A stretch of 64,000 nucleotides of DNA from Bacillaceae bacterium. Its GTDB lineage: Bacteria; Bacillota; Bacilli; Bacillales; Alkalibacillaceae. The stretch is taken from assembly GCA_017656265.1 (NCBI GenBank), contig JACDOD010000004.1, forward strand, positions 186,001-250,000, given 5' to 3'. The translations under genes were made by a program, and so were the position numbers. Each line of letters opens with the position of its first letter. The first letter of the stretch is position 1. Shown piece after piece: positions 3,158-52,285 of this stretch. The notes beneath the pieces are model-generated. The model was not told where the DNA came from. It saw nothing but the letters and a program-made list of their open reading frames with translations, and searched no databases.

Positions 3158-3455
3158 GTTGGTTATCAGATAAAGTAATGAATGGCAGAAAAGACGAAAA
3201 AATAAATACAGCTAACATGCGCTGACCCCTGTTCGACTAAAAGCGGCCACGTCCTGTGGCCAATGTCGACACTAGCACGTCCTGTGCGTAACAGCACGGG
3301 CCGAAAATTCTGCAGACAACGAAGAATGAGTTGTCTTATGGAGCTTTAGGCAGTGTTCCGCGGAAAACGAGGCATTCGGATAACATGGAAATCCGGACTA
3401 ATTCATGTAACGATTGAAATTAGTCCGGATTTATGTTACCTTTTTCGATTTTGTA
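3158..3455. repeat. Composite intergenic repeat with three hairpins
   Basis: The 3' part (3389-3432) is a perfect 15-bp stem whose loop and flanks match the cores of the hairpin repeats at 17490, 27428 and 53564. The 5' part (about 3165-3210, GAAAAGACGAAAAAATAAATA region) matches the left flank of the 27428 copy. Between them sits unrelated GC-richer DNA with two mini-hairpins sharing the loop GTCCT: GGCCAC/GTGGCC at 3245-3261 and GCAC/GTGC at 3275-3287. The reading is one repeat family interrupted by another. It separates the convergent ligase and SDR genes and may also end transcription. Confidence 0.65.
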
Positions 3456-28459: not shown

Positions 28460-28795
28460 ATGGAAGCAATTAGTTCTGAGAAGCAGTTTAATGAGGTTAT
28501 TAATCGCAGTGAGATTTCAATTGTGAAGTTTTATGCCAATTGGTGTCCGGATTGTGTCAGAATGAATTATTTTATTGAGCCAATCCTGGAAAAATACAAT
28601 CAATACAACTGGTTTGAAATGAATCGGGATGATTTTCCTGAAATCGGAGAGAAATATGAAGTAATGGGGATCCCGAGTTTATTAGTGTTTAGAAATGGAG
28701 AAAAAATTGCTCACCTGCATAGTGCCAATGCGAAAACTCCAGAACAGGTAACAGAGTTTCTGGATGAATTAGAAGGGGTTCTCAATAGTCAATAA
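28460..28795 (+). CDS. Thioredoxin-like protein
   Basis: A 111-residue thioredoxin fold protein with the active site YANWCPDCVRM (WCPDC instead of WCGPC) and the cis-proline in MGIPSLLVF. The altered active site is seen in thioredoxin-like proteins of Bacillaceae whose partners are not defined. GGGAGGG precedes ATG 28460. Two 18-nt repeats lie upstream. Single gene. Confidence 0.9.
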   Translation: MEAISSEKQFNEVINRSEISIVKFYANWCPDCVRMNYFIEPILEKYNQYNWFEMNRDDFPEIGEKYEVMGIPSLLVFRNGEKIAHLHSANAKTPEQVTEFLDELEGVLNSQ

Positions 28796-28861
28796 TACAT
28801 TCTACTATCAATACATGAAGGATATGGATAATGGATAACCTATTTTTTCATTCGCCAAAAA

Positions 28862-28903
28862 ATGACAAAATTCATTGATTTTGTCATGAATTTAAATTAC
28901 TAT
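28862..28903 (+). promoter_or_regulatory. motPS promoter overlapped by inverted repeat
   Basis: TTGATT (28875-28880), 17 bases, TACTAT (28898-28903) form a plausible sigmaA promoter. A perfect 10-bp inverted repeat, ATGACAAAAT (28862-28871) and ATTTTGTCAT (28878-28887), covers the -35. It may be an operator or the end of the preceding transcript; no T run follows on either strand. Confidence 0.5.
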
Positions 28904-28950
28904 AGAGGAAAGTTCCCTTTTTATAACATTCGAACAATTACATACGATTG

Positions 28951-29032
28951 AAAAAGGCAAACCTATCGAAAGGTAGGGGCGCAAAGCCACAGATCTACCG
29001 TTCTTAATAGAACCACGATGGCTGGGCTGCCA
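28951..29032 (+). promoter_or_regulatory. Cyclic-di-GMP-I (GEMM) riboswitch
   Basis: The order AAAGGCAAACC, GAAAGG, GGGGCGCAAAGCCACAG, CGATGGCTGGGCTGCC is the GEMM-I consensus, including the GAAA tetraloop that docks and the CGCAAAGCC strand with the ligand-binding residues. It is followed 10 bases later by a terminator. The internal segment TTCTTAATAG (29001-29010) is the exact complement of CTATTAAGAA (29050-29059) in the terminator, giving an antiterminator alternative. It should control motP-motS transcription in response to cyclic-di-GMP. Confidence 0.88.
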
Positions 29033-29042
29033 ATCTGCGGTT

Positions 29043-29069
29043 GGCTATTCTATTAAGAATAGCCTTTTT
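29043..29069 (+). terminator. Riboswitch-controlled terminator
   Basis: GGCTATTCT/AGAATAGCC stem, loop ATTA, then TTTTTG. Located between the aptamer and motP, 98 bases before the start codon. Confidence 0.88.
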
Positions 29070-29166
29070 GTTTTGAAGGATAAATCATAGGTTTGATAGG
29101 TCGAAGAAGAAGGATTTTTCTAGTCGTTTAAACCATTTTGAATCAAGAAATGATAGGAGAATGGCT

Positions 29167-29967
29167 ATGGATAAAACATCACTCATTGGCTTGATTTTAG
29201 GTTTGATTGCTGTTTTCGTCGGTATGATGCTAAAAGGCGTGGGGATGGTCAGTTTAATTAACCCGGCCGCTTTTCTGATCATCATTTTAGGTACGATTGG
29301 TGCTGTGACCATTGCATTTCCTGCAAATGAGATTAAGAAGGTACCAAAGTTATTCAAGATAATTTTTCGAGAACAGCAGCTGCAAAGCAATGCAGATTTG
29401 ATCAAAATGTTCTCTGGCTGGGCTCAGCTTGCCCGCAAAGAGGGATTATTATCGCTGGAAACTAAATTAGAGGAAATTGAGGATCCGTTCTTAAGGAATG
29501 GAATGACCCTTGTGATTGATGGTAAAGATACGGATTACGTTCGGGAGGTATTACTTGAAGAAATCGAAGCCATGGAAGAACGGCATAAAATAGGTGCATC
29601 TATTTTTACGCAGGCAGGTACATATGCTCCTACGCTCGGGGTTCTGGGAGCGGTAGTAGGATTAATAGCAGCACTGGCTGATATGAGTGATATTGATAAA
29701 CTGGGACATGCCATATCCTCTGCCTTTGTTGCAACACTTCTGGGGATTTTTACAGGTTATGTACTCTGGCATCCATTTGCGAATAAACTGAAACGCAAGT
29801 CAAAGCAGGAAGTCAGTCAGCGAGAGCTAATGATTGAAGGAATTCTTTCTATCTTAGAAGGAGAAGCTCCCAGAGAAATTGAAACAAAGCTTTCCTCTTA
29901 TCTTCCAGTACATGAGAGAAAGAAATTTCTAGAAGAAAGTGGAGTGAGTGAATATGAAAAAGCGTAG
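29167..29967 (+). CDS. motP: Flagellar motor stator protein MotP
   Basis: A 266-residue MotA-type stator subunit with four membrane helices (two near the N-terminus, MDKTSLIGLILGLIAV and LINPAAFLIIILG; two after residue 145, PTLGVLGAVVGLI and the next) and the large cytoplasmic loop that touches the rotor. The sequence start and the paired gene match the sodium-driven MotP of Bacillus. ATG 29167 is 8 bases from GGAGA; ATG 29161 is too close. The stop overlaps the motS start. Expression is placed under cyclic-di-GMP by the upstream riboswitch. Confidence 0.93.
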   Translation: MDKTSLIGLILGLIAVFVGMMLKGVGMVSLINPAAFLIIILGTIGAVTIAFPANEIKKVPKLFKIIFREQQLQSNADLIKMFSGWAQLARKEGLLSLETKLEEIEDPFLRNGMTLVIDGKDTDYVREVLLEEIEAMEERHKIGASIFTQAGTYAPTLGVLGAVVGLIAALADMSDIDKLGHAISSAFVATLLGIFTGYVLWHPFANKLKRKSKQEVSQRELMIEGILSILEGEAPREIETKLSSYLPVHERKKFLEESGVSEYEKA

Positions 29968-30700
29968 AAAAAAGCACGACGCTGAGGAGCATACGGATGA
30001 ATCATGGCTAATTCCATATGCTGACTTGCTCACTCTGCTTCTGGCTTTATTTATTGTGCTATTTTCTATGAGCACCATCAATGCTGAAAAATTTGCCCGG
30101 ATGGCAGAAGTATTTAGCATTGAATTTAAAAGTGGAACTGGTGTATTTGAATATCCAAGCCCGCTGCCATCAAATAAAATGCTCTCCCCAGACGAAGTAG
30201 AAAAGACTAATGTGGCCAATGAAGATTTTGACATGGAAGAACTTCGTCAAATTCAGGGGAAAATTAATCGATATATCCAAGAGAATAATCTTACTGAAAC
30301 CTTTGAAACCTTTCTGACGGAAGAAGGACTGATGGTCAGAATCCGGGATTATGTTTTGTTTGATTCAGGAAGTGCTGAAGTAGATGAAGAGCATCGTGAA
30401 ATCGCCCGGGAAATATCCAATTTATTAGTGATGAATCCGCCTCGAAATATCATTATCAGCGGGCATACCGACAATGTGCCAATCAGCACAGTTGATTTTT
30501 CATCTAACTGGGAACTAAGTGTCATGCGAGCTGTCAATTTTATGAAAATAATGTTAGAAAACGAAGAGCTTGATCCGGCATGGTTCAGCGCCAAGGGATA
30601 TGGGGAATTTAGTCCAGTTGCATCAAATGATACTGCGGAAGGAAGAGCGAAAAACCGTCGGGTGGAAATTTTGATCTTACCGAGAGTATCTGAAGAATGA
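29954..30700 (+). CDS. motS: Flagellar motor stator protein MotS
   Basis: A 248-residue MotB-type subunit. A basic N-terminus precedes one membrane helix with Asp24 in IPYADLLTLLLALFIVLF, the ion-carrying aspartate; an OmpA-like peptidoglycan-binding domain lies at about 130-245 (SGHTDNVPIS, NWELSVMRAVNF, RRVEI). The sequence agrees with MotS of the sodium-coupled pair MotPS. ATG 29954 lies inside the end of motP after GGAGTGAG, so the two are coupled. It anchors the stator to the wall. Confidence 0.93.
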   Translation: MKKRRKKHDAEEHTDESWLIPYADLLTLLLALFIVLFSMSTINAEKFARMAEVFSIEFKSGTGVFEYPSPLPSNKMLSPDEVEKTNVANEDFDMEELRQIQGKINRYIQENNLTETFETFLTEEGLMVRIRDYVLFDSGSAEVDEEHREIAREISNLLVMNPPRNIIISGHTDNVPISTVDFSSNWELSVMRAVNFMKIMLENEELDPAWFSAKGYGEFSPVASNDTAEGRAKNRRVEILILPRVSEE

Positions 30701-30739
30701 TTTTCATGGGTTCATTGGTTGGCTATGAATGGAGGTTTT

Positions 30740-31390
30740 ATGTTGTCAAAAGCAGTTATTTTTGATATGGATGGGACTTTGTTTCAGACTGATAAAATCT
30801 TAGAGCCATCTCTTGAAGACACCTTTGATCATTTAAGGGCTCTAAATTTATGGAGTGGAGAAACCCCTATTGAACAATACCGTAAAATTATGGGAGTACC
30901 ACTGCCGGTTGTCTGGGAAACGCTGATGCCTGATCACAACAATCACATTCGTCTCAAAGCGAATGAAATTTTTCATAGGAAGCTGATTGAAAATATTTAC
31001 GAGGGAAAAGGTGCTTTATATCCAAATGTTAAGGAAGTGTTCAGTTATTTATTATCTAAAAATTATTCCATATTTATTGCAAGTAATGGCCAAACAGAAT
31101 ATTTAAGAGCCATTGTGGAATTTTATAAGCTTGATCATTGGGTTACCGAAACGTTCAGTATTGAGTTTATTTCATCTGGCAATAAAGGTGATCTGGTTCA
31201 GCATATTATGAAAAAATATGACTTAAAAGCAGGGGCAGTAGTGGGGGACAGGCTGTCTGACTTTCATGCTGCAAAAATGAACGGTTTATTATCTGTTGGA
31301 TGCAATTTTGACTTTGCCCGACAGGATGAGCTTACAAAGGCTGATATAAGGATAAATGACTTATCTGAAATTAAAAGGATAGGGATTTGA
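30740..31390 (+). CDS. HAD family hydrolase
   Basis: A 216-residue haloacid dehalogenase-type phosphatase: DMDGTLF (nucleophile Asp near residue 9), SNGQTEYL (motif II), a lysine in SGNKGDLVQH and the acidic GDRLSDFHAAK (motif IV). The helical cap between motifs I and II marks it as subclass I, like phosphoglycolate phosphatase or beta-phosphoglucomutase. ATG 30740 follows GGAGG. It trails motS by 39 bases and may be co-transcribed. The substrate is unknown. Its stop overlaps the start of a broken gene. Confidence 0.9.
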   Translation: MLSKAVIFDMDGTLFQTDKILEPSLEDTFDHLRALNLWSGETPIEQYRKIMGVPLPVVWETLMPDHNNHIRLKANEIFHRKLIENIYEGKGALYPNVKEVFSYLLSKNYSIFIASNGQTEYLRAIVEFYKLDHWVTETFSIEFISSGNKGDLVQHIMKKYDLKAGAVVGDRLSDFHAAKMNGLLSVGCNFDFARQDELTKADIRINDLSEIKRIGI

Positions 31391-31650
31391 TGACCATACT
31401 CGTAACAGGTTTTAATGGGAAAGTCGGTTCGGGAGTTGCAAAAAAGTTAAAAAGAGAAAGATATTTCTTTTAAATGCGCAGTCAGAAATGAGGATAGAGC
31501 CAGAGCTAAACATGGACATTCCTATGAATTCACTTCCCTTGACTGAACATTGAATCATGAATTTATCTGTAAACGAGTTTAAGAATGATTTGATTGCTAA
31601 GGTTGCTGTTGAAGGGGATATAAACGAATGGTAGGCGTCCATTTTCCAAC
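31390..31650 (+). pseudogene. Broken NmrA-like NAD(P)-binding protein gene
   Basis: ATG 31390 opens MTILVTGFNGKVGSGVAKKLK, a Rossmann start, and stops after 27 codons. One base shift later the next frame reads FKCAVRNEDRARAKHG and HSYEFTSLD, and a later stretch reads LSVNEFKNDLIAKVAVEGD, both like NmrA family parts. Two frameshifts and a large internal deletion make it a pseudogene. It overlaps the HAD stop codon (TGATG), so it was once the next gene of that operon. Confidence 0.7.
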
Positions 31651-35355: not shown

Positions 35356-37785
35356 ATGCCGGACAAATCGTATAATCTTCAACATTTATCTCTGATTTTT
35401 GAGAAAGTATCTGATCTTATTTTTTTAATGAAAATAGAGGGTCCTTCCCAATATCGATGTATACAAGTTAATCCTTCTTATTTAAATGTTACCGGGTTAA
35501 AAGAAGAACAGATGGTGGGAAAAAGAGTTGAGGACATTTTGCCGGAGGATCTGTCTGCTTACATAATGAATCAATATCAAAGGGCCATTGAGTTAAAGGA
35601 AACGATACAATATAACGAATATTTAATGGTAGATCACAATCGAGTTGTGGTCGAAACCACCTTAACCCCCATACTCAATCAAATGGGTGAATGCACACAC
35701 TTACTGGGGATTTCCCGTGATTTAACTCAGCGGCTGAATACGGAAGAAGAGCAAAAACGCCTCCTCTCAATTATCGAAGCAACACCCGATTTTATCGCTA
35801 CAGCTGATGCTGAAGGAAATGTTTTGTTTTACAATCGATCAGCCCGGAAAATTCTTGGGATTGGAGAAGATGATGATGTTTCGCATTTAACCATTCCTGA
35901 GACCCATCCGGAATGGGTTCGGGGCAAGATTCTCGGAGAAGCGCTTACCGTTGCGAAAGAAAAAGGCTATTGGAGTGGTGAATCTGCTTTTATTAGTACC
36001 ATTGGCAAAGAAACGCCTGTTTCACAGGTGATCATTGCCCATAAAAACAAAAAGGGTGATGTAGAGTATTTTTCTACAGTTGCCCGTGATTTGACATTAG
36101 AAAAACGAGCTGAGGAGAAAGAAAAAATCGCTGCCAAAGTTTTTGAAAATATCATGGATGGGGTCATGATAACGGATCGGAATAATTTTATTCAATTTGT
36201 CAATCCGGCATTCACCCGGATAACTGGTTATCAAGAAAATGAGGTTATTGGCAAAAAGCCGAGAATATTAAGTTCCGGGAAGCATGATGCTGATTTTTTT
36301 CAAACGATGTGGAATAGTATTCACAAGACAGGAATGTGGAAAGGGGAAATATGGAACAAAAAAAAGAATGGTGAACTTTATCTTGAAGAAATTACAATTA
36401 ATGCTTTGAAAGATCATAAAGGGCATGTCCGTCATTATGTTGCTATTTTTAAGGACATTACGGATAGGAAGTCCTTAGAGGAAAAATTGCAATTTCAGGC
36501 ACTTCACGATGATTTGACCAAACTTCCAAATCGTAATTGCTTTTATGAACAATTAAACAAAACCATCGAGCATGCCTCGAATACAAATGCTGCGTTTGGG
36601 GTTATTTTCTTAGACCTTGACCGGTTTAAGGAGATTAATGATACATTGGGGCACAGCGCAGGAGACGAATTATTAAAAGCGGTTGCTGATCGATTAAGAC
36701 AAACGGTAAGACAAAGTGATCTTGTAGCTAGACTTGGTGGAGACGAATTTGTTGTTATTCTTCAACATTTAAACAAGAGCAGCGATTGTATTAAGGTAGC
36801 AGAAAAAATCAAGGATAGTTTTTCAAAACCATTCTTATTAGGTGATTATGATTTATATATAACTCCAAGCATGGGTATAAGTGTTTTTCCAGACAACGGA
36901 AAGGACGCAGAAACGCTTGTTAAGCATGCAGACACAGCCATGTATCAGGCAAAACAGCATGGAAAAAATACGTTTAAATTTTTCAGCAGTGAATTTGATG
37001 ATGAATCCTTTGAAAGGCTTATGCTGGCAAGTGATTTAAGAAAAGCCATTGATCGGACGGAGTTTATCCTGCATTATCAGCCCCAATTTTCGCTACATAC
37101 AGACGAACTGGTTGGGTTTGAAGCTTTAATCAGATGGAATCACCCTAAGAAGGGGATGATCCCTCCTGGTTCATTTATACCGTTAGCAGAAGAAACTGGG
37201 ATGATTATCCCAATCGATCAGTGGGTGCTGCGGGAGGCGTGTCTCCAAAATGTGAAATGGCAACAGCAGGGGTATAAACCGGTCAGAATATCGGTGAATC
37301 TATCCATGCTCCAATTTCAGCGTCAAAATGTATTTGAACTGATCCAGTCAATTCTGAAGGATACAGGACTGGACCCGCATTATCTGGAAATCGAATTAAC
37401 CGAAAGTATCATTATGGATAATCCCGAAATCACTTCTAAAAACATTCAACAATTAAAAACAATCGGTGTTCAAATTTCTCTGGATGACTTTGGCACCCAT
37501 TATTCCTCATTAAGTTATTTAAAACGGCTGTCGCTGGACCGATTAAAAATTGATCAGTCATTCATGCGGGATTTAGCTGACAACAAAGATGATCAAATTA
37601 TCGTACAGACGATGATTCAATTGGCCCATAACTTAAATTTAAGAGTTGTGGCAGAAGGTGCAGAACATCAGGAACATTTAGAGTTTTTAAAAAACCACAG
37701 GTGCGATGAAGTACAGGGTTATTACTACAGCAAACCTGTCCCAGCTATGGAGGCGGTAAAGTGGATTGAAAAAAGTTTCATGTAA
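35356..37785 (+). CDS. PAS-PAS-PAS-GGDEF-EAL cyclic-di-GMP enzyme
   Basis: An 809-residue soluble signalling protein. Three PAS domains (about 10-125, 135-255, 260-380) are followed by a GGDEF domain with intact GGDEF (461-465) and the inhibitory RxxD five residues before it (RQSD), and an EAL domain with EALIRWN (589), ELTES, DDFGTHYSSL and VAEGAE. Both synthesis and breakdown sites look active, so the PAS inputs probably set the balance. The ATG follows GAAGGTGAC. It may feed the riboswitch at 28951. A Spo0E-like gene follows by 48 bases. Confidence 0.95.
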   Translation: MPDKSYNLQHLSLIFEKVSDLIFLMKIEGPSQYRCIQVNPSYLNVTGLKEEQMVGKRVEDILPEDLSAYIMNQYQRAIELKETIQYNEYLMVDHNRVVVETTLTPILNQMGECTHLLGISRDLTQRLNTEEEQKRLLSIIEATPDFIATADAEGNVLFYNRSARKILGIGEDDDVSHLTIPETHPEWVRGKILGEALTVAKEKGYWSGESAFISTIGKETPVSQVIIAHKNKKGDVEYFSTVARDLTLEKRAEEKEKIAAKVFENIMDGVMITDRNNFIQFVNPAFTRITGYQENEVIGKKPRILSSGKHDADFFQTMWNSIHKTGMWKGEIWNKKKNGELYLEEITINALKDHKGHVRHYVAIFKDITDRKSLEEKLQFQALHDDLTKLPNRNCFYEQLNKTIEHASNTNAAFGVIFLDLDRFKEINDTLGHSAGDELLKAVADRLRQTVRQSDLVARLGGDEFVVILQHLNKSSDCIKVAEKIKDSFSKPFLLGDYDLYITPSMGISVFPDNGKDAETLVKHADTAMYQAKQHGKNTFKFFSSEFDDESFERLMLASDLRKAIDRTEFILHYQPQFSLHTDELVGFEALIRWNHPKKGMIPPGSFIPLAEETGMIIPIDQWVLREACLQNVKWQQQGYKPVRISVNLSMLQFQRQNVFELIQSILKDTGLDPHYLEIELTESIIMDNPEITSKNIQQLKTIGVQISLDDFGTHYSSLSYLKRLSLDRLKIDQSFMRDLADNKDDQIIVQTMIQLAHNLNLRVVAEGAEHQEHLEFLKNHRCDEVQGYYYSKPVPAMEAVKWIEKSFM

Positions 37786-50612: not shown

Positions 50613-50635
50613 GGAACCTAATTTTTTTAGGCTCC
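50613..50635 (-). terminator. Hairpin at end of GGDEF gene
   Basis: On the minus strand GGAGCCTAA/TTAGGTTCC with one mismatch overlaps the stop codon of the MASE3-GGDEF gene and is followed by TCTTT. Weak. Confidence 0.4.
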
Positions 50636-52021
50636 CCTTTCATTTCCTATAGAAAATCGCACACAATTCCTACAATCATGTTTTGCTTGATATAAGGCCT
50701 GATCAGCCATATTGATCAATTCGTTTGGCTCCTGCTCCTGATCAGGAATGATGGTACTGACCCCAACACTGATGGTGACAAATTGGCTGATATCAGAAGA
50801 AGCATGGGGAATCTTAAGGGATTCTACATTTTTTCGAAACAATTCTCCAACATTTCTTGCTCCTTCGACGTCTGTTTCCGGAAGAATGATGCCGAACTCT
50901 TCTCCTCCATAGCGGGCGACCAGATCAAAAGCTCTATTGACACTTTGATGTAACGACTCTGCTACTTTTTGCAGACACTCATCCCCCGCCAGATGTCCGT
51001 AGGTATCATTAAACTTTTTGAAAAAATCAATGTCGACCATGATCAGAGAAAGAGGTGTATGATTGCGAGCTGCATTCTGCCACTGTTTTCTAAAATGTTC
51101 ATCAAAATATCGGCGGTTTGGGATTTTCGTCAGACCATCTAAATTGGTAAGTTGCTGCAGACGTTCGTTCATGTCATGCAGTTTTTTCTGAGTTCGCTGC
51201 ACTTTTAAAAAAGGTTCTTCAATGGTGGCCACATGAATGCCCTTTAATAAATAGTAATAGCCAAGAACTTTATATAAATGACCGAAAAAGTGAATAAAGT
51301 CAAAAGGACTGATGTATAACGTAAACGTTAATTCACTGAAAATAAGAAACACCATTGCAAGCAGCAAGTGCAACATTGCAGGTTCCTGGTTAATACGATA
51401 CTTCCTGGCTAAAACCATAATTGTTACGAGATGAATAAATGAAATAAGGTATTCCAATCCATTTTTTAAGGCGGTGGTTCCCTCTCCTTCTACTGCAAGT
51501 ACTGGTAAGAAGTCACTATAAAAAATAACTGCACTGATGATGGTTACGTATGCCAGCGGCAATATAAAAGCTGTGTTGCGCTTAATTTTAGCTTCAGATT
51601 GGTCAGTTATAAAATAAAAAATCAATAATAATCCTATTGCACCCGTAATTCTCGCCATAATCCAGAACCAGACTGTATGCTCCAGAGAACTTTCTGTAAT
51701 AAAAAAAGGCATCTCCGGGAATGTAAGAGCGTGCATGAGATCCAGTGACCCAACTGCAAAGAAAGTGATGGATAAATATAATCTCTGCACAGAGGAAGAA
51801 TAGTGGTGACTAAACCAGCTGGTAAAGGCGATAGAGTAGGAGACGGCTATGCTGAAGAATTCCATAATCATATGAATGGCCAGGTAATTCTCTGTTGTGT
51901 AGGAGTTAAGCTGATCATTAAAAATTGAAATAAACAGAAAAATGACTGTAATCGCAAGGATAGCAAAAAATGTTTTTTTCTCGTGAAGGGGAAATTTCCC
52001 TTGTATTGTCGATCTTCCCAT
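50627..52021 (-). CDS. MASE3-GGDEF diguanylate cyclase
   Basis: A 464-residue membrane cyclase. The first 260 residues carry about seven helices with features of the MASE3 sensor (YLAIHMIMEFFSIAVSYSIAFT, LDLMHALTFPEMPFF). A GGDEF domain follows, with LDGLTKIPNRRYFDEHF, the active-site variant GGEEF and the inhibitory RAFD five residues upstream. It should make cyclic-di-GMP in response to an unknown membrane signal. ATG 52021 follows AAAGGAAG; the ATG at 52045 has no ribosome site. A second potential source of ligand for the riboswitch at 28951. Confidence 0.93.
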   Translation of the reverse strand: MGRSTIQGKFPLHEKKTFFAILAITVIFLFISIFNDQLNSYTTENYLAIHMIMEFFSIAVSYSIAFTSWFSHHYSSSVQRLYLSITFFAVGSLDLMHALTFPEMPFFITESSLEHTVWFWIMARITGAIGLLLIFYFITDQSEAKIKRNTAFILPLAYVTIISAVIFYSDFLPVLAVEGEGTTALKNGLEYLISFIHLVTIMVLARKYRINQEPAMLHLLLAMVFLIFSELTFTLYISPFDFIHFFGHLYKVLGYYYLLKGIHVATIEEPFLKVQRTQKKLHDMNERLQQLTNLDGLTKIPNRRYFDEHFRKQWQNAARNHTPLSLIMVDIDFFKKFNDTYGHLAGDECLQKVAESLHQSVNRAFDLVARYGGEEFGIILPETDVEGARNVGELFRKNVESLKIPHASSDISQFVTISVGVSTIIPDQEQEPNELINMADQALYQAKHDCRNCVRFSIGNERGA

Positions 52022-52285
52022 GTATTTATTTCTTCCTTTCAGCATTTTCAGACCTAATACAAATTCCCTAGTTGATTTATTGTAAACATATTTTTCGAGC
52101 TATTTCTACAACAATTCGCAAATTAACACTATGATCATAATAAAAAATATAATTCAATGGACAAATGCTGGAAAACCAGGATACTTTACCCTATTAACAG
52201 ATGAAGATTTCATGTTATTTCCTGTTTATTATTTTGGAAAAAGAACAACATAAAACTAAATTTTGATAAAGGAGGTAAAACAGTT

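Follow-up and report, generated by a model that had tools for sequence, protein, structure and literature searches.

The window, by which we mean the whole stretch of 64,000 nucleotides that was analyzed, carries a c-di-GMP-I (GEMM-I) aptamer on the forward strand (28946-29035), followed by an intrinsic terminator and two overlapping flagellar stator genes (Table 1). In a cmscan search, the Rfam family RF03167 (c-di-GMP-I-GGC) matches 28947-29035 of the forward strand (E 2.5e-15) with 72.8 bits, above its gathering score of 59, and RF01051 (c-di-GMP-I) scores 81.9 bits at the same place (cut-off 35). A preliminary description of this DNA had recognized the aptamer, a terminator behind it and a pair of stator genes. 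All three are borne out, the aptamer by a significant match in the Rfam covariance search; P1 begins five bases before the start given in that description.

Table 1. Positions of the riboswitch elements, the stator genes and two GGDEF genes in the window.
Feature	Position	Strand	Basis or remark
Aptamer P1	28946-28950 with 29031-29035	+	pairing of helices checked
G20 (Vc2 numbering) equivalent	28956, G	+	column invariant in alignment A1
Aptamer P2, GAAA loop	28962-28967 with 28972-28977	+	pairing of helices checked
A47 equivalent	28983, A	+	column invariant in alignment A1
P3 tip	29000-29012	+	complementary to terminator 29048-29060, 13 bp (12 Watson-Crick)
Anti-P1 hairpin	29029-29045	+	GCCAATC-TGC-GGTTGGC; 29029-29035 with 29039-29045
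C92 equivalent	29030, C	+	column invariant in alignment A1
Intrinsic terminator stem-loop	29043-29064	+	GGCTATTCT-ATTA-AGAATAGCC, then T5 tract 29065-29069
motA, stator subunit A	29161-29967	+	NF005997; 6ysl chain G, E 2e-112; PF01618
motB, stator subunit B, overlaps motA	29954-30700	+	NF005831; 6ysl chain A, E 1.1e-83; PF13677, PF00691
PAS-GGDEF-EAL protein	35356-37785	+	domain search; RxxD motif read from translation
Protein with GGEEF diguanylate cyclase motif	50627-52045	-	motif read from translation

Stator Genes

The preliminary description had assigned the two genes to motP and motS, the sodium-type stator, but the curated models assign them to motA and motB. The first gene scores 422.9 bits with the NCBIfam MotA model NF005997 (cut-off 340) and falls below the cut-off of the MotP model NF005383 (212.4 against 394); it just passes a model named "flagellar motor protein" (NF006583, 245.8 against 237). 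The second gene reaches 369 bits with the MotB model NF005831 (cut-off 301) and stays below the cut-off of the MotS model NF005382 (160.8 against 264). The nearest solved chains of the two proteins are MotA and MotB of 6ysl, which we take to be from B. subtilis. By eye, the likely start of motA is the ATG at 29167, behind AGGAG. The neighbors of the operon are a thioredoxin-like gene and a HAD gene, not ccpA.

A search of the same genome with the window MotA found one further homolog at E <= 0.001 (36% identical, C5:122977-123735). At this locus (L027) the MotP model (439.5 against 394) and the MotS model (334.6 against 264) are both passed, and the gene before motPS is ccpA (TIGR01481, 523.1 against 442.35). 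The order ccpA-motPS is also found in B. subtilis, to go by the title of a reference cited in PMC9039648. The Rfam model search of this genome found no c-di-GMP-I aptamer on contig C5, which carries motPS. The genome has both stators, and the riboswitch sits on motAB, not on motPS. A sodium-stator MotPS identity for the window operon is ruled out by the NCBIfam models, the 6ysl chains and the real motPS behind ccpA. MotAB is the proton-driven stator in B. subtilis, and by analogy the stator encoded here may be proton-coupled too, a putative assignment.

The Aptamer

Thirteen aptamers were aligned (alignment A1), 11 from this genome, one from its genus mate, Melghiribacillus thermohalophilus, and one from G013, another genome of the family. 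The pocket bases in Table 1 follow Vc2 numbering, and we presume that the ligand-contact roles of G20, A47 and C92 carry over to 28956, 28983 and 29030. The strand of P3 at 28995-29000, presumably the receptor side for the tetraloop on P2, reads CUACCG in the window, against CUAA[AG]G in 12/12 other A1 aptamers. The affinity of the aptamer may therefore be lower. The same strand is also able to pair with the 3′ strand of P2 in short transcripts. From its sequence, the aptamer is predicted to bind c-di-GMP; a literature search found nothing on whether the ligand of RF03167 differs from c-di-GMP. A scan of the forward strand before the aptamer found no consensus promoter, and to name the conserved, AT-rich stretch at about 28862-28915 as the promoter would be a guess.

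Terminator and Competing Structures

Three structures compete in the leader: P1, the anti-P1 hairpin and the terminator. In the anti-P1 hairpin, the 3′ strand of P1 is sequestered together with the C92 equivalent and with the bases that begin the terminator. Its stem is identical in the genus mate, and the terminator stems of the two leaders differ at 29058 and 29064, where both changes leave G-U pairs. When the leaders are aligned, a long run of near-identity spans the aptamer, the anti-P1 hairpin and the terminator; from there to the ribosome site of motA they have largely diverged. Both strands of 28780-31500 together hold 6 terminator-like sites against 1.6 expected, the anti-P1 hairpin being among the 6.

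With P1 and P2 alone forced, the terminator forms in the folds, at -37.7 kcal/mol in the window and -31.5 in the genus mate. The rival state, in which the anti-P1 hairpin is joined by a duplex of the P3 tip with the terminator, lies at -37.4 and -33.9 kcal/mol, respectively. Near-equal energies of the OFF state and its rival are what a switch decided by a ligand needs. The anti-P1 state without the duplex comes to -26.6 kcal/mol in the window and to -32.3 in the genus mate, there 1.6 kcal/mol weaker than the duplex state. In window transcripts ending at 29045, 29050, 29055, 29059 and 29064, the ligand-free fold is more stable than the locked aptamer by 4.5, 4.5, 4.5, 6.3 and 2.4 kcal/mol, respectively, ligand energy not counted.

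The unconstrained minimum of the window transcript to 29064 (-40.1 kcal/mol) combines the terminator with a misfolded aptamer and lies 2.7 kcal/mol below the antiterminated state. Since this minimum holds the terminator, ligand-free read-through must rely on folding order. Once the T-tract is included, the window minimum (-45.5, z -4.0) contains the P3-tip duplex, but another inner helix replaces the anti-P1 hairpin. The genus mate, folded to the end of the terminator stem, has the full antiterminated state of duplex and anti-P1 hairpin as its minimum; with the T-tract, the anti-P1 hairpin is kept and the duplex is lost. The full antiterminated state is the minimum only in the genus mate and only at the end of the terminator stem.

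The P3 Tip and the Terminator

The complementarity of the P3 tip to the terminator was spotted after the fact. Its 13 bp were reached in 0/2000 shuffles of the terminator for the window and in 1/2000 for the genus mate. Shuffles that kept the terminator hairpin reached them in 36/20000 cases, and those in which both hairpins were shuffled in 32/20000. At the rate of 36/20000, over about 80 leaders, one case of 13 bp is not astonishing.

Match lengths were compared across 93 c-di-GMP-I leaders drawn from family and order: 11 from this genome, one each from the genus mate and G013, and a further 80 selected by hand, mostly high scorers. The parsing pattern dropped nine of them; of the 84 parsed, 82 were usable, and two returned a length of 0, probably because their P3 slice was empty. 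The two longest matches, 13 bp each, are those of the window and the genus mate, in this order, a length that no other leader reaches. The next longest match is 11 bp (L214, another aptamer of the genus mate), and 81/84 leaders have 10 bp or fewer. The other 10 aptamers of this genome have at most 8 bp, or at most 7 bp against the terminator alone. Window and genus mate have the same P3 tip, and only one of the two changes in the terminator stem (29058) lies within the duplex, a conservation between two related sequences that is not proof by covariation. The P3 tip seems to serve as the antiterminator strand, an apparently unusual layout.

Proposed Mechanism and Alternatives

We consider it likely that the c-di-GMP-I riboswitch acts on motAB transcription as an OFF switch, a prediction from the folds, in which a locked aptamer lets the terminator form. 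In the proposed mechanism, c-di-GMP would bind the nascent transcript and lock P1 and the pocket base 29030. With P1 locked, 29039-29045 would stay free, the terminator would form and transcription would stop before motA. In the ligand-free transcript, 29029-29035 would fold onto 29039-29045 to give the anti-P1 hairpin, and the P3 tip would pair with 29048-29060; both would break the terminator, and motAB would be made. High c-di-GMP would then mean less MotAB torque, with motPS outside the switch. Both the direction and the size of this effect are predictions.

The switch may also work as described through the anti-P1 hairpin only, the P3-tip match being fortuitous or a minor stabilizer, a possibility that we think doubtful. 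In the genus mate, the state of anti-P1 hairpin plus local hairpins comes close to the duplex state in energy, the OFF state is weaker than either, and the minimum with the T-tract lacks the duplex; the match was also noticed post hoc, and hairpin-preserving shuffles reach it at the rate given above. In the window, however, the anti-P1 state without the duplex lies far above the OFF state, and the terminator would hardly be prevented by the hairpin alone. Moreover, the genus mate has an unchanged P3 tip, and the sole change in the terminator arm of the duplex leaves a G-U pair. An antiterminator that includes the P3 tip is the reading we prefer for the OFF switch. That c-di-GMP would instead raise motAB expression is very unlikely. 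ON switches of this class are known, such as the one before cbpA in B. thuringiensis (PMC7793685, in the part available), but locking the aptamer forms the terminator in the folds of both the window and the genus mate, and the anti-P1 hairpin is incompatible with P1 and takes in the C92 equivalent. The motility of B. subtilis is lowered by c-di-GMP through DgrA, according to the available part of PMC7064775.

We also find it highly improbable that the aptamer senses another cyclic dinucleotide, e.g., c-AMP-GMP. A G at position 20 is the c-di-GMP state, and an A at this position that of c-AMP-GMP (GEMM-Ib). The base at 28956 is a G, as is its equivalent in 13/13 A1 aptamers. The RF01051 score and the GGDEF and EAL proteins encoded in the genome likewise argue for c-di-GMP, even though c-AMP-GMP variants of GEMM-I exist (PMC7266159, in the part available) and the best Rfam label is that of a named variant, RF03167. 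We give next to no credence to the version of the preliminary description in which the switch governs the sodium stator MotPS. Its c-di-GMP riboswitch on a stator operon stands, but the control of a sodium stator does not: the curated models and nearest structures are those of MotA and MotB, and the real motPS lies on C5 behind ccpA, on a contig free of c-di-GMP-I aptamers. What speaks for a sodium stator is that the genus mate is a halophile by name and that stators named MotAB are not always proton-driven. MotAB of B. clausii is a dual-ion stator, and the coupling ions of a Paenibacillus MotA1/MotB1 are reportedly the subject of PMC7407149. The suggestion that transcription sets the ion use of the motor could possibly hold in a reversed sense, in which c-di-GMP would remove MotAB and leave MotPS.

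Distribution of the Aptamer-motA Pairing

Within the family, MotA was found in 4/22 genomes (E <= 1e-60) and MotP in 21/22 (E <= 1e-20), with the MotP of G015 split in two pieces and none in G006. An aptamer lies directly upstream of motA in three of the four MotA-bearing genomes, namely this one, the genus mate and G013. Among 85 loci, the upstream matches are L026 (this genome), L028 and L031 (the same DNA of the genus mate) and L030 (G013). No aptamer was found upstream of motA in the fourth genome, G016 (L029). There, a c-di-GMP-I aptamer lies past motAB/motB on the same strand (G016:C1:41808-41912).

None of the 79 closest relatives outside the genus (L032-L110, from the best 80 of 530 MotA relatives, i.e., the closest ones and not an even sample) has an aptamer upstream of motA in the stretch searched, which was up to 2.5 kb long (0.9-1.9 kb for L044, L051 and L089). 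In six of the 79 (L032, L034, L039, L052, L054, L063) an aptamer lies 1.1-1.9 kb past motA. Order-wide, 0/40 upstream stretches of motA, each of 1 kb and hand-picked for family spread among the matches listed (188/299 genomes of the order have a match), held a credible match; the strongest scored 10.3 bits and lay on the minus strand of L141. The two surveys, of 40 stretches and of 79 loci, partly overlap in genomes. At least one c-di-GMP-I aptamer is present in 266/299 genomes of the order. Thus, the aptamer class is ordinary and motA as its target is rare in our sample.

In the leader of G013, the 3′ end region of the aptamer can pair with a downstream stretch over 9 bp, and the P3 tip matches the terminator over at most 6 bp; this leader seems to use a different platform from that of the window. 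In a MotA tree of 45 rows, which took every second locus of L032-L110, the window groups with the genus mate only, and G013 and G016 are sisters (99/99). No aptamer was seen close to motPS when the positions of both in the genomes of the family were compared by eye; on shared contigs the distance between the two is about 100 kb or more, and otherwise they lie on different contigs, which in draft assemblies falls short of proof. Another genome of the family, G020, carries 18 c-di-GMP-I aptamers.

Tentatively, and with more doubt than confidence, we suggest that c-di-GMP may select between two stator sets by transcription. The uncommon layout with the P3 tip as antiterminator strand would cut the supply of MotAB and leave MotPS, so that a cell high in c-di-GMP would turn its flagella on the other ion or stop. 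Such a switch would have arisen on motAB two or more times in a single family, in this genus and in G013, with unrelated expression platforms.

The c-di-GMP Regulon and Turnover Proteins

This genome has 11 c-di-GMP-I aptamers, and the gene downstream of each of the other 10 was surveyed, taken as the next frame of at least 90 codons for nine and as the frame behind a ribosome site for the tenth (L025). These genes encode two chemoreceptors, CheW, two EAL proteins, a MASE3-PAS-GGDEF protein, an ATP-grasp protein, a DUF192 protein, a long RHS-repeat protein and one protein without a Pfam match. Six of the 10 aptamers precede chemotaxis or c-di-GMP-turnover genes. For both chemoreceptors and CheW, more than 200 bases separate the aptamer from the start of the frame, which leaves room for shorter genes. 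As a target, motAB is in keeping with the other motility genes behind aptamers of this genome.

Three of the other leaders have features of their own. The DUF192 gene (L024, contig C19) is followed by prepilin-peptidase-like and TadE-like genes, by eye seemingly those of a Tad-type pilus. The RHS-repeat frame (L018:2-4513, contig C15) has at least 1503 codons, runs off its stretch and lies behind an aptamer and a terminator-like hairpin. The weakest aptamer of the genome (L025:1084-1168, 64.6 bits) has a ribosome site and start codon within 30 bases; no terminator was seen between aptamer and start, and control may therefore be translational.

The preliminary description had also pointed to two GGDEF proteins with inhibition sites in the window. 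In both, an RxxD motif lies five residues ahead of GG[D/E]EF, as described. The one at 35.4 kb also has an EAL domain and may therefore degrade rather than make c-di-GMP. The sole PilZ match in the genome is L111 (43.2 bits against 22.5), a gene between a ypeB-like gene (by eye) and cmk; its match to the NCBIfam model YcgR is weak (28.1 against 400). We take its position to recall that of B. subtilis ypfA, and by this analogy L111 may be MotI/DgrA. If so, c-di-GMP would hit MotAB twice, at the transcript and at the finished motor. Among the papers on Melghiribacillus listed in a literature search, nothing on motility was found.

Relation to Known Systems

The riboswitch shares the aptamer fold, the pocket bases and a transcription-terminator platform with the class of RF01051 and RF03167, but differs in that its predicted target is motAB and in that the P3 tip is seemingly the antiterminator strand. 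In 7/10 other leaders of this genome, the 3′ end region of the aptamer can pair with a downstream stretch over 9-12 bp. The available part of PMC7793685 describes an "off" c-di-GMP riboswitch before mcpA in B. thuringiensis, alongside the "on" one before cbpA. Like the switch proposed here, the mcpA riboswitch is of the OFF kind and serves a motility gene of a Bacillus relative, but its target, as described there, is a chemoreceptor and not a stator. In the same part of that source, motAB is mentioned only among what the repressor MogR lowers.

Proteins through which c-di-GMP slows flagella by acting on built stators are known, among them MotI, YcgR and FlgZ (PMC9039648, in the part available). 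In B. subtilis, the PilZ protein MotI/DgrA pulls MotA off the rotor on binding c-di-GMP, as the available part of PMC7064775 reports. This clutch resembles the proposed switch in that c-di-GMP acts on the MotA stator, but it is a protein and not an RNA; this genome, too, has a PilZ protein, before cmk (L111). In P. aeruginosa (FlgZ and MotCD), a single motor has two stator sets and c-di-GMP affects one of them, as may be the case here, but by protein-protein control and not by transcription, according to the available part of PMC9039648.

Precedents exist for the riboswitch class, for a motility gene under OFF control and for protein-based c-di-GMP control of one of two stators. motAB appears to be new as a target of the c-di-GMP-I class: among the titles and abstract openings listed in the literature searches, no c-di-GMP riboswitch on motAB was found. 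The layout of the expression platform is possibly new. If the proposed switch is true, the messenger would use RNA to set how much of one stator type, out of two, is supplied, and a cell would have a simple route to choose its motor. A P3-tip antiterminator, if real, would mean that a peripheral loop, and not P1 alone, can carry the signal in this riboswitch.

Elsewhere in the window, at 3221-3288, a match to the Bacillaceae-1 RNA family (RF01690) scores 36.9 bits, just over the cut-off of 35.
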